Assembly: GCA_963921795.1 (NCBI GenBank)
Contig: OY997649.1
Coordinates: 58,883,788-58,947,787 of the forward strand
DNA length: 64,000 nucleotides
Origin: Nannobrachium achirus
Lineage: Eukaryota; Chordata; Actinopteri; Myctophiformes; Myctophidae
Direction of reading: 5' to 3'
Shown here: one piece after another, positions 859-63,700 of the stretch
Numbering within the stretch: the stretch's first letter is position 1
Layout of the letters: each line of letters begins with the position of its first letter
Program-made: the position numbers and the translations under genes
Notes under the pieces: model-generated
The model's database searches: none
Seen by the model: only the letters and a program-made list of their open reading frames with translations
What the model was told of the DNA's origin: nothing

Positions 859-3800
859 CTGAAAGGAAACGGCGGTGGTTATCAGCAGACACGTGACATA
901 ACTGTATACTGTATCATCACCTTACTGTACACTGTACCATTAACCAATTGTGTCCCGAGGCCCATTCTATAAACGCAGTCAAAATATCTTGAAATAAAAT
1001 AATTGTCCTGGAATATGAATATTTATTAGAAAATTACATTACAGCACTGATTCCTGCTGATTTATAGGCATATCTCATCAATAAAATGAATTAATAAAAT
1101 CAATAAGAAGTGTTTCTGTACACACATTTGTACCACCATCTGCATGCTGACATCACTGATACTAAACAATGTCGCCACCAAGGTAACAATGCCCTACTGA
1201 CATCACTACAGTGCCCAAATTTGGAGATGACATCACAGACTGGCCTGGACACGGAACACCATATATGGGCATAAAAGAGTGCCAGCCAGACAGACGGATA
1301 CAAGGGGTATTGCACAACTGGACATGGATGGTGGTGACTATTCTGCCCAACGGGCACCGTTCGGGGTTCTCCAACATTACTTCTGAGACTCCTACATTCA
1401 ATCCCTCTCATCGCACACCCCCGGGCACAGGACTAGTATATCGTCACTGTCGGGCAGAAACCTTGTATCTCCAAGTTTCAAGTTTGTATGTTTTTTTCAC
1501 CAAGTAAAGCCCTGCTTCATCATACAAGGCTGTCGCACAAAAGTAGTGAAAACAGGCGATCTACAAGCACACAACGCCTAGCACCGTGAGGCATTGTGTG
1601 CTTGTAGATCTGCTATTTTCACGAGTTTAGTTCATTTTTAAAACAATAAATACAAAACAAAAGGTTTTGGACATACAAGGCTTCCACCCGACACTGACGA
1701 TATATATACAGCCGAGTTGTTGATCTGCAGAATTTTCTCCAAATACAACAGGAACTACACCCTTGGTACAAGGAAGCCAAAAGGTCACTGCAAATGTATG
1801 TCTTTGGGACCCAATATTCGTGGCCAGTTCATGTAAAACCATATGGAAGGTATTTACAGTAGGATCATGATGTCTTTTTTTACTCCTTTTCGTGTTTTTT
1901 TTACCAGCATTTGGATCATACGCAGAACTGCTTCTGACAACAAACGTATCCATTGCAAGTATCCAGGTTGGCACACTTGGCCTGAATGAATGAAATCAGA
2001 TCTTTATTGGCTAGTCCTGGAAAGGTCATAGTAATATTGTGGTTCATATTGAACACTGTTTAATATCCAGAATGTGTGTATTTTTCACATTAAATGTTAC
2101 TTTCATTCGAGTTGACAATTAATGAGTTGTAACTGACCCCACCCAATGATGTCACCAGGAAGACCTATTCCATAAAGAGAGCAAAACTAACAGGGCCTAC
2201 AGTCTCGCTGTGAGGACGAGGCCTAAGCCTCTATGCTGGAACATGGTGCTTCTCCACTACGAAGGGCAACCCTGAACCTTCCAAATGCGTAAACGTTTCA
2301 GAATACTTTTGACTTTTGCATGTAATAATGCTTGAATGTTGAACCTGTTGATGACGTATCTGAGGGCCTTCTCGCGGTTAGCAGAGTAGATGGAAGGGCT
2401 GCAGTTGCAGGCAATGAGGTTGGAGGCATCGTGGAACAGATGTACATTGACCAGGTCCAGACCTCTGTGAAGAGAATGCGCACGCACGCACACACACACA
2501 CACACACACGCGCACGCACACGCACACACACACACACACACACACACACACACACACACACACACACACACACACACACACACACACACAATAATGTGAG
2601 ACATGGCAGATGGAGGAAGAAAACAGGAAGTGTTCTCACAATGACAAATCCTGAATTCTATCTGGTACGTGGATGTTTATTTGTGTGTGTGTGTGTGTGT
2701 GTGTGTGTGTGTGTGTGTGTGTGTGTGTGTATGTGTGTGTGTGTGTGTGTGTGTGTGTGTGTGTGTGTGTGTGTGTGTGTGTGTGTGTGTGTGTGTGTGT
2801 GTGTGTGTGTGTGTGTGTGTGTGTGTGTTACTGCATACAGGCCTGTAGGGCTGTCACTTTAAGAGGAGCTTACTTATCAGTCAGTGCACTTGTGGCCACA
2901 AACAAACACATTTGTCTTTCTGAGCCACGAACATTCACTCAGACTCCCTTTCTCTGGTTGTCACCAGAAAACAATTAATGTGCATCCAACACGCGGGCTG
3001 TGTTGACTTACAGCACGACCTTACGGCTACAGTTTCTGGGCTCTTCATAGCCAAACACCCTCCCCCCATGGTAAAAAACACAGGAGAGCAAATAGTGACT
3101 ATTGTACCCAGACAACAGAAGGTGTTTGCTATATCGGCCTTAATTGAGGCTGCTGCAGCAACAGCGAATAATAGTTCCAAAACAGATGGGTTGAGAACAG
3201 GAAAGTCTCTCTGTTGTTTTCAGGGCACCGGCTTCGTCACAGCGGAGTCTTGTTTGAAATGCACGTAAAAACAGCAATGAATGTATTCTGCTACTGACAG
3301 AGGATGTGTGCAATGTGTGTGTGTGTGTGTGTGTGTGTGTGTGTGTGTGTGTGTGTGTGTGCGCGCGCTCGTGCGCTCGCATGCGTGCATGTGCGTTTGT
3401 CAGCTTCTCCGGGGATAATCTAGCAAACTGCTGTATTGATCACCTCTTATTCACTTAAGAGCGGCAGTGGCTCAGAGGTAGAGTGGCCGCTTGACAACCG
3501 GAAGGTTCCAAGTTCGATCCCGGGCTTCCCCCGAGTTAGTGTCAAAGTGTCCTTCAGCAGGACTCTGAACCCCTAACTGCTCCTGATGAGCAGGTTGGTG
3601 CCTTGCCATGGTTTCCTCCACCATCAGTGTATGAACGTGTGTGTAAATGGACGAATGTAATGCACAATCTATATTAAGTTTATATAGATTGTGCATTACA
3701 TTCAAAGTGCCTTGGATGAAGGCGTAGCCCAAGGATGTACGATATACTTCCATTAAACTCTTTTTCACGTTTTATGTTTTTTGAAGCATTTAACTTTGGC

Positions 3801-60700: not shown

Positions 60701-63700
60701 TGTAATGTCAGTTTTTTTTAAAGGAGAACAACTAATTACTAAATCCTAGTGGACCATTATACTCTCAGTTAAGCTAGTCATAAGTTAAAGTTGTACCATG
60801 TAACTTTTTTTATAAAACAAATCTTAAAATTGTCCTAACTGTTAAATCACTAAAGTTTTAGAACACCCACTCCGTTATTTTCAGCTTCTGAAGCCTTCTC
60901 TTTATATGTTTTCTATGATCCTGGCCGTGGACCGGATTTCGCGCCAAAATGACGTAATCTGCATCATCTGTATACGTTGTGTATACGTTGCCCAATCACA
61001 TCGCCGATCATGCACACATGGTACACTACCGGCCAATCACAGCTTATCTGCTCTGGTCTCCAGGAAGCGCCTCCGCTTGGCTACAGTGTTTACCATGGTG
61101 AAGGATTTTAACCTCTTAATCCACAAATCCTGGCCAGAAAATTACGTTCTACCATGCGTTCTACCCCTCCACGGATTACTATCGGTCGCGGTGGTTTGCG
61201 GCGCCGCTCCGGTGGTCCGCGGCGGTGGTCCGCGACGACTCCGGCCGAAAAACGGCCGAAAAAAGCAATACCGCTACTGACCACTAGTTGAACTTACACA
61301 GTATAGCTTTAACTAATAACTACGATGTTTAAATGAAAGTTTCCTCTTTTGACTTTGCCATGATTGACAAAGGTATATACATCATATTAAAATGCAGTCA
61401 CAAGTCAAAACTGACACTAAGTATCTGCATCTGCTGCTGCTTCAAGTCAGTGAATTGAAGAAGAGCAAAGTGGAATCATTCTGAACGGGGGCTCTCTCTA
61501 TTCCGACATGTCTCCTTTCTGACATTGACTTCTTATTGTCGGAGTGGCAACACTTCCATAGAGGTAAGGTTTAAGGCAAAGGATAGGGTTAGTGTCGGAA
61601 TGGAGACATGTTGGAATGGAGACATGTCGGAACATGTAATCCATTCTGAAACATGGCTCCAGAGTTAGGGAGTCCAAGTAGTCTTATGTAATACTCAAAG
61701 AGCAGCAAGAGTGGGGTGAATCAATACATGGAATAGGCACACTAGACATTATCTTTATTCAAATGATGAGTACCAAGTCACTGTACTGTAAACAGTAATA
61801 ACGTCTGTGTCACCAGTCAGAAAACGGAATGTGTTGCTCATATACTCGGTGACATCCAAGACAATGACTCAAGAAACCAGCCTTTGCCTTTTAAGTTACA
61901 ACTTCAGCATTATGGCCAGTCACCTGCCGAAGTGACTAACGGTACCGTAATTGAACTAGCCAAGTATTGGTATGGTGTCAATTTCCACCCCCTAAAAGGA
62001 TTCATTATAGGAAAGCACCGATCCAGGTCAACTGGGGGCATATACCACCAGGCATAAAGGAAGCTCCACTGGATATGTGGCCAATAAGGGAGTGCTTTTC
62101 AGCAATGCAGTTCTTTATTCAAGGCCAATTAAAAGGCCTAGAACTTAAGGTGACACTATTTGCTACAGAATAATTACCATATATTTGACCGGACTTGACA
62201 CTTGATTTTATTACCTTAGTAATAATCACTGTCATAAATACTTTATGCTTTCAGTCACTATGCTTTCAGTCACTATTTTAAAGTCTTCTTAATACCACCA
62301 GGATATGTGTTTTAGTAAATTATTGTTCCATTAATTTTGAAATTGATGATTCGCTGAAAATGTGGCTTCAAAGCAGGTCTATAGATGTTTTAACAGTCTA
62401 CGGCATATAAACACTTTTAAGTTTAACAAGGGGTTGAAGATTCACAGAATACAGACGTTTTTTTCACTTATTGAGCCATAATAAAACAAAAACATTATGC
62501 AATGTGGTTCAGTGCATTCACCTGTAGCTACAACACCCACCACTTCACCTTTTCTCTAGATCGCACAGTACAGCAGCTACTTGAGAATATGATGTGCCAT
62601 CTCTCATGTCTCCCTTTAGGTACATTTATTTCTGGCACAAGATCCTGCTCTCAAGGGACATGTTGGAAAAGTGCTGACAGCATTAACTGAAGACAAACCA
62701 GAGAAAGCATGAGAAGAGAGAGAGCTGATATAACCTTCTCTGGTTTCACCTAAGGTTCAATTTTAACAGTGGTCTGCTGCATAGTGCATGGGCGAAGCGT
62801 TGTTCACTTTGGTTTAGAATAAAAGACATAAGAGCAGTTCATAATTGTGCGCACAGAAATTTTTTCTTCACTTGATTGTTTTTGGGGCCCGCAATGTGTT
62901 TAACGAAATGTGGGGATGTGCATATCCTACCTTTTCCCATTTTAAGTAGTGAATAATATAGCTCAGAAAAGCAGCAAACACTGAGATCTTTCACTATTAA
63001 CCACATTGCACAAGTGAACTAGCCTGGTTCCAGCACATAGAACCGCCCACTCTCAGAGCAGACTAGCTTCAGCCGAGTCTGAAATCAAGCTACAAGTGAA
63101 CTGAAGCTGTACAGCAGTCCTCTCTGGCAAGTTGGATAATAGGCTAATTCAACAATGGAAGACAGTAGCTATTGATGGTCTGGTTCCTCAGTAACTAGAG
63201 TCTAGTTACATCATAGGGAGAATAGGCCTCCTGGCTATGATGCAATCTATACCAACAGAGACCCAGGCTTGTTATTGAATAATGAACACACTTGTGGGAC
63301 CAGCATAGTTGTAGATCCCCACCTACCTTTTACACATTGTTTTTAATTAATATATAAATGTCCTTCTTGTTGTGTACAACATGGCTTGTGTTATGAAACA
63401 TATTTCTAAAAAACACAGACTCCCCATATAACAATAGTGAATACAGACAAACCTTTGTGTACTATTGTGAGGGGCAAGATGATTGGCCACAACAGCTGAA
63501 AAGGCTATTGAGTATAGAATACTACTTTCTTAGTTCATTTCTTGACACAAATCAGTTAAACCACATGAACTCTAGCATCCCTGACCTGGGTGGGGCAAAC
63601 AGATCTACTGAGCTTGTAGATCAGCTACTTTGGCCAAAGGCTATACCCGGTATTTAATGTAGAGCGAAAACAGGCAGACTCTGGTAAGAATATAAGGGTT

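Follow-up and report, generated by a model that had tools for sequence, protein, structure and literature searches.

One short palindromic hairpin recurs throughout a 64,000-nucleotide stretch of the genome of the fish Nannobrachium achirus (contig OY997649.1, positions 58,883,788 to 58,947,787 of the forward strand; hereafter the window), where it lies inside transposable elements with different terminal sequences. We consider it reasonably probable (about 60%) that this hairpin is the centre of a TTAA-type miniature inverted-repeat transposable element (MITE) that became nested in hAT-type hosts and spread with them. The source would be a lineage of small noncoding, TTAA-flanked (piggyBac-type) MITEs having the hairpin as their central palindrome; these would land in hAT-type MITEs of various families and often lose all but the hairpin and one end, after which the transposase of the outer element would amplify the composite, presumably with piggyBac-type and hAT transposases doing the moving, so that the hairpin becomes the common centre of families with unlike ends. 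MITE families are sorted by their ends, and here one palindromic centre joins families whose ends imply different transposases. Among the families, which we lettered ourselves from their ends and flanks, this nesting is clearest in D, supported in A and I, and weaker in G.

The hairpin is far more abundant than chance would allow. Its arm, GATCTACAAGCTCACAACGC, has 41 matches in the window with up to three mismatches and 55 with up to five, vs means of 0.0 and 0.4 (maximum 2 for the latter) in 20 simulated sequences with the same dinucleotide steps. With a profile trained on 151 arms, 39 hairpins are detected in the window (22 two-armed, 17 one-armed), in good agreement with the roughly 38 counted in the initial annotation, which was made from the letters of the window; all 11 coordinates cited there sit 2–15 bases ahead of a profile match, and of the flanking motifs it described, AAATAG borders 24 of the 39 on the left and CTATTT 21 on the right. 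The same search found 65 hairpins in a 200-kb genome sample taken from one position on each of 20 contigs, including that of the window (4,534 N bases; GC content 42.8%), which makes the window about 1.8 times richer. Genome-wide, a 20-base arm with at most two mismatches gives at least 236,632 forward and at least 235,354 reverse matches vs 2 and 0 for the reversed pattern; close to half a million arm matches in this genome trace to a single hairpin.

Two arm matches are present in 67 of all 123 hairpins collected (66 with the arms in opposed orientation) and one in 56, and many copies have lost part of the hairpin. When intact, it consists of a 34-position stem and a 3-base loop, the stem running from AAAATAGC through a mostly unpaired position and then GATCTACAAGCTCACAACGC to a variable tip. 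The copy at 55030-55118 folds with a predicted energy of -67.9 kcal/mol (z -16.8), and a strong hairpin is predicted whichever strand is folded. The family F hairpin reached the gathering score of no Rfam family, and across the whole window the sole Rfam match was a tRNA at 3461-3532, with no microRNA or other family at the hairpins. The exact 20-mer arm had no match in viral and prokaryote collections; two other arm patterns matched two viral stretches and one prokaryote stretch, none with such a hairpin, and a gapped pattern matching at least 120 viral stretches was not used. Three papers containing one of six arm 13-mers were unrelated, as judged by their titles. At locus L128 (1457-1635), four overlapping hairpin units stand in tandem, as if the palindrome also multiplies head to tail.

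The superfamily names used here for the elements around the hairpin (hAT, piggyBac) are putative, being assigned from target site duplications (TSDs) and ends. The terminal inverted repeats (TIRs) of hAT elements start with CA or TA. Short TIRs of this kind are found in families A, D, E, F, G and H, each with an 8-bp TSD in at least one copy: A has ends CAGGGGCGTCACA and TSD GCAGTCCT, D CAGGGGTCTTCAAC and GTCTAAAG, E CAGTGGTTCTCAAC and GTCTACTC/GTCTACAC, F TAGGGCTGTCACGA and GTTCCCGT, G TAGGGATGGGACGA with ATTCATAG and GTGGCAAG at loci L143 and L146, and H CAGTGTTG with GCTTGATC at locus L138. Further hAT-type ends, CAGTGTTTCTCAAC, come with the 8-bp TSD GTCTAGGT. The TCGTCACTGTCGGG family is real, its TSD not clear-cut, and family C (ends TATCGTCACTGTCGGG) has no clear TSD and is left unclassified as to superfamily. 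TTAA-flanked, piggyBac-type MITEs carry the hairpin at 6175-6703 and 6859-7440; the TTAA duplication is seen in the inner MITEs, with TTAG on both sides in one copy. Kolobok elements likewise use TTAA. In family I, a left TTAA-type end and the hairpin are fused into a repeat rich in ACTTTTACT. Helitrons leave no TSD. The hosts here have 8-bp or TTAA duplications and the hairpin is internal, unlike the Helitron hairpin, which lies close to the 3' end (PMC12628747).

The initial annotation placed the hairpin in elements with at least six unrelated end types. Several ends are indeed unlike and there are more than six host families, but the ends of D and E are alike (~60-75 bp at 72-77%), as are those of F and G (74 bp at 77%), so end types are fewer than family letters. 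Its CAGGGGYGTC elements are likewise real and correspond to family A, in which five of six two-ended copies hold two hairpins (four arms) and one holds two arms; the TTAA-flanked family has to be added to the hosts. Families are not definable by rule alone, since a two-sided flank rule, adopted after a first flank clustering had merged 86 of the 123 hairpins through nesting, leaves 82 groups, 67 of them singletons.

Association of the hairpin with hAT-like elements is also seen when the hairpin is not used to find them. A blind structure scan, covering the window together with the 200-kb sample, detected 19 elements that combine inverted repeats with an exact 8-bp duplication, vs 0 in the reversed sequence. 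One, whose repeats were the hairpin arms themselves, was dropped; 13 of the 18 usable hAT-like elements hold the hairpin vs 14.8% of random intervals of the same length, and five are without it. These 13 are not independent, comprising three of F, two each of A, G and D, one of E, the element at 10345, and two in which the hairpin belongs to a nested C element. Pairing the 10345 element with L146:4148 as filled and empty copies was rejected, the ends being similar and the interiors failing to align.

The clearest indication of how the hairpin reached its hosts comes from family D. There it is central in an inner element, TTAA CCACTTGAACC ... GGTTCAAGTGG TTAA, that lies within the hAT, and in five rows of a TTAA scan the inner D element has its TTAA and CCACTT ends. 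(High-scoring rows of that scan starting with CTATTG are family A repeats beside the hairpin rather than element ends and were set aside.) The inner D left end, with up to three mismatches, has 22,421 matches genome-wide (11,359 + 11,062) and 0 in the control. Among eight loci with this end, three of which overlap the arm-fetched loci L127, L129 and L131, seven are in a D hAT and one is elsewhere, and all eight hold the hairpin or part of it. The joined D junction without insert has two matches genome-wide: at L153 the D hAT has one clean TTAA and no inner element, and L152 has an inner element whose hairpin was lost by deletion between two TTTG repeats. At L127:1492-1585 (the L156 locus), a D-type inner element stands outside a D hAT, and beyond the hairpin its right flank contains the left flank in inverted form (20 bases at 85%), suggestive of a palindrome that has grown.

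TTAA-type ends accompany the hairpin in other families too. At 56916-57167, a family A hAT end abuts CCCATTTAGA, an end type of the TTAA MITEs that was not found in the other aligned family A copies; because it is kept here and missing elsewhere, family A looks like a trimmed TTAA MITE captured in a hAT. Family I keeps the left TTAA-type end in five copies (literal TTAACC in two of the five), the hAT at 10345 keeps the right one, and family G has a degenerate version with 4 of 15 bases off. Of the 104 hairpins in the set chosen independently of the arm, 17 have a strict TTAACC-type end within 260 bp that points toward them, vs 3.8% of random positions; among all 123 hairpins, such ends point inward in 25 cases and outward in 7. 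A looser motif occurs within 130 bp, inward, at 43 of the 104 vs 14 outward and 15% at random, and its distances to the hairpin peak at about 36-46 bp. The elements of the window are as follows.

1438..1704 (+), family C element with ends TATCGTCACTGTCGGG; hairpin 1549-1620.
4045..4338 (+), family F copy without its left end; the hairpin is reduced to the stem base by an internal deletion and is not an empty site.
4788..5603 (+), family A hAT; hairpins 4863-4933 and 5156-5226, simple repeats in the right part, possible TSD CACGCACA/CACGCACG, itself repeat-like.
6175..6703 (+), TTAA-type MITE with CCCATT ends and TTAG on both sides; hairpins 6234-6267 and 6601-6657.
6859..7440 (+), TTAA-type MITE with CCCATTTAG ends and TTAA on both sides; hairpins 6899-6969 and 7314-7384.
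9123..9194 (-), family C hairpin; with the outer arms (9108-9210) the arms are 48 nt and 94% complementary.
10345..10607 (+), hAT-like element with TSD CCCTAAAG; one arm, 10504-10534, adjoins the TTAA-type right end.
14011..15013 (+), family A copy interrupted by other sequence; hairpins 14011-14043 (left-arm profile match) and 14943-15013.
19955..20328 (+), hAT with ends CAGTGTTTCTCAAC and TSD GTCTAGGT; encloses a family C copy with hairpin 20146-20203.
20728..21156 (+), family E hAT (CASTGGTTCTCAACC) with TSD CAGTAAGT; hairpin 20976-21032.
22226..22604 (+), family E hAT with TSD GTCTACTC/GTCTACAC; shortened hairpin 22441-22484.
23147..23434 (+), family D, left end not found; intact hairpin 23198-23268.
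29270..29803 (+), family A hAT with TSD TTAGTGCT/GTAGTGCT; hairpins 29343-29413 and 29668-29712.
32541..33061 (-), family A hAT with TSD GCAGTCCT; hairpins 32624-32694 and 32917-32986.
35142..35575 (+), possible TTAA-flanked element with CCCATTAA ends (TIR match 10/14); diverged hairpin 35216-35275.
41204..41739 (+), family H hAT, borders approximate, with CAGTGTTG ends and TTTTAGTC repeats; hairpin 41445-41505; the outer arms GTTGCGTGCTG are family-specific yet paired.
46873..47059 (+), inner TTAA-flanked MITE of family D with CCACTTGAACC ends; partial central hairpin.
51084..51474 (-), family F (TAGGGCTGTCACGA); single arm 51223-51255.
51725..52169 (-), family D hAT (CAGGGGTCTTCAAC) with TSD GTCTAAAG.
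51837..52008 (-), TTAA-flanked MITE nested in the family D hAT; hairpin 51877-51934.
52938..53352 (+), family F; single arm 53156-53188.
54818..55242 (+), family F hAT with TSD GTTCCCGT; intact hairpin 55038-55108.
56168..56552 (-), family G hAT (TAGGGATGGGA); hairpin 56285-56347, matching TSD not seen here.
56916..57167 (+), family A intermediate: hAT end, then TTAA-type MITE end CCCATTTAGA, then one arm at 57040-57071.
58266..58622 (+), family A fragment; right arm 58490-58516.

The two arms of the hairpin have changed together. Pairing was assessed in 22 hairpins of 71 bases, drawn from 44 of 60-78 bases among the 123, a set that covers seven assigned families and three unassigned copies, is biased toward well-paired hairpins, and was aligned with one row (C1550) slid by one column. 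In these hairpins 89.8% of cells pair vs 85.1% in shuffles, and 39 cells carry changes on both sides vs 16.4 (sd 2.9) when shuffled, a count reached by 0 of 500 shuffles and vs 3-14 in slid controls. One stem pair is A-T in family C and T-A in the others, another is T-A in family E and A-T in the others, and neither has an unpaired cell among the 22. For the family C-type pair, the matched forms have 20,914 and 22,152 exact occurrences genome-wide, the mismatched (mixed) variant being defined as CTACAAGCACACAA with TTGTGAGCTTGTAG. On contig C1, in 37 of the 50 listed hairpins (47 bases), Watson-Crick pairing of the inner stem is 77.7% vs 70.6% shuffled, with a maximum of 76.0% in 2,000 shuffles. 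Between family consensuses (pairwise and thus non-independent comparisons, with one copy each for F and G and two for I), 44 differences are compensated, 17 are otherwise two-sided and 70 one-sided, whereas changes private to single copies of C, D, E, I and A are compensated in 2 cases, otherwise two-sided in 4 and one-sided in 42. That compensation is found between families and hardly ever in private changes indicates that pairing was kept in the source elements and not in single copies later.

Selection and arm-to-arm templated copying both fit the matched arms, and pairing may have been kept either since an intact hairpin helps amplification or since one arm templates the other during replication or repair. 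Simple homogenisation fits less well, in that pair 9-63 is unpaired in 16 of the 22 hairpins and is flanked by compensated pairs. An alternative is that the hairpin is a working part, acting in synapsis, replication stalling or RNA structure, that families gained by recombination with one another and that selection on pairing has kept. Compensated differences between families and hardly any within them would be expected, most families include an intact form even though many copies have internal deletions, each of a different kind, and 13 of 18 structurally intact hAT-like elements have the hairpin; nevertheless we regard this as unlikely, as matched changes can also be obtained by arm-to-arm conversion, the TTAA-type ends offer a simpler route for several families, and the pairing is imperfect at 9-63. 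A broader proposal, that the hairpin is a selected, structure-dependent module boosting the amplification of any nonautonomous host, whatever its transposase, is somewhat easier to entertain, though still doubtful. Such a module would be to DNA transposons what the conserved central domains are to short interspersed elements (SINEs), and founders would need an intact stem, so that matched stem changes would be fixed in founders and decay would be free in dead copies.

Occupancy of the hosts also bears on how the hairpin spread. A survey of 288 kb, 24 kb of which had been fetched by the arm itself, yielded 46 two-ended host elements of nine families (double-listed elements counted once; five in arm-fetched loci), 41 with at least one arm and 5 with a stem remnant only. 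The initial annotation had suggested looking for empty sites in paralogous copies, and no cleanly empty element was found among these 46. The founders of the host families thus probably already carried the hairpin. Hairpin identity in six families is 0.70-0.88 between families, close to the 0.79-0.93 within them, which suggests that captures were not much older than amplifications; flank identities from this comparison include unaligned stretches and were not used.

That all hosts are one old family whose ends diverged around an unchanged centre is very improbable on these data. Most outer hosts are hAT-like, and the D/E and F/G end similarities point in that direction, but family A and the TTAA MITEs have the same interior with hAT ends in one and TTAA ends in the other, queries from C and H, after masking, recovered only members of the respective family in the sequence examined, and hairpin identities are nearly as high between families as within. 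On alignable sequence, neither one diverged family nor restriction of the hairpin to one family, the two outcomes that the initial annotation had said would refute it, is found.

Several observations weigh against nesting of a TTAA-type MITE as the general explanation. TTAA-type ends are absent around the hairpin in families C, E and H, the resemblance in F is weak (TTGACAACTTTATAC, at 38-49 bp, differs at 4 of 15 bases), and 61 of the 104 hairpins have no loose-motif TTAA-type end within 130 bp; C, E, F and H may have acquired the hairpin by the same route. As the short deletion of L153 is also present in the filled copy L154, the sole clean TTAA site may be an excision instead of a pre-insertion site. 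Because the D/E and F/G hAT ends are related, some of the sharing may be plain descent, with fewer captures than families. In the stem, moreover, further pair types number only 27 vs 24.0, a value reached by 38 of 500 shuffles.

The hairpin could instead be a palindromic micro-transposon, mobile by itself and inserting into other elements, which would fit its presence in families C, E and H, where TTAA-type ends are missing. An F copy at 4180 has the palindrome flanked by a direct repeat, ACTTAAAAAA, and the tandem hairpins of L128 could be taken the same way. We nevertheless judge this quite improbable: a clean, hairpin-only empty site is missing among the 46 two-ended elements, the hairpin-less but otherwise normal inner element of L152 looks like a deletion at the TTTG repeat, and the outer arms are palindromic as well, which simple insertion with direct duplications would not yield. 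Of the possibilities raised in the initial annotation, capture by elements with different ends is supported, insertion of a free-standing hairpin into an existing element was not seen, and seeding of element formation by the hairpin stays hypothetical.

Composite MITEs and MITEs with captured domains are already known (PMC6887750, PMC12628747). MER6 is a mariner-type MITE carrying the V domain of a fish SINE (PMC6887750), and resembles the present case in that a conserved centre from one element class was amplified inside a DNA element of another; unlike in MER6, the core here is palindromic, is common to several end types, and has a likely source that is itself a TTAA-type MITE. In miDNA4 of Xenopus, a MITE with captured tandem repeats (PMC12628747), the captured sequence was likewise multiplied along with the MITE, whereas here it is one hairpin across superfamilies and not a tandem array. 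The hosts themselves share with piggyBac-type MITEs the TTAA duplication, ends starting with CCC or CCA, and one clean insert-free TTAA, and differ in the retained central hairpin; they share with hAT-type MITEs the 8-bp duplications and inverted repeats starting with CA or TA, and differ in having a centre common across families. A zebrafish element, Angel, is reported in a 1999 paper to fold as a whole from its own inverted repeats, unlike the fold here, which is a core common to elements with different ends. Both are small teleost elements that fold back, as Angel elements are able to do (PMC12628747). Our search of the open-licence literature found no description of a shared palindromic core across end types with matched arms, although one may exist elsewhere. 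If the hairpin is a mere hitchhiker, nesting lets a tiny element spread on the machinery of other elements; if selection maintains it, the hairpin would act as an amplification signal that can be passed between elements, and the long-standing question of what drives certain MITEs to very high copy numbers becomes testable.

The window has several other features. Beside the family G hAT lies a coding-looking stretch (55839-56378, -), with the right end of the hAT near an apparent 3' splice site; we take this stretch to resemble a glycerol-3-phosphate acyltransferase, and Pfam gave no match. A 416-aa open frame at 47836-49086 (+) has an RVT_1 domain (E 6.5e-27) and is probably a fragment of a long interspersed element. 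The tRNA-like Rfam match at 3461-3532 (+; 30.1 bits) is possibly the head of a tRNA-derived SINE. Very long CA/TG arrays, up to ~180 bp, occur at many sites in the window.

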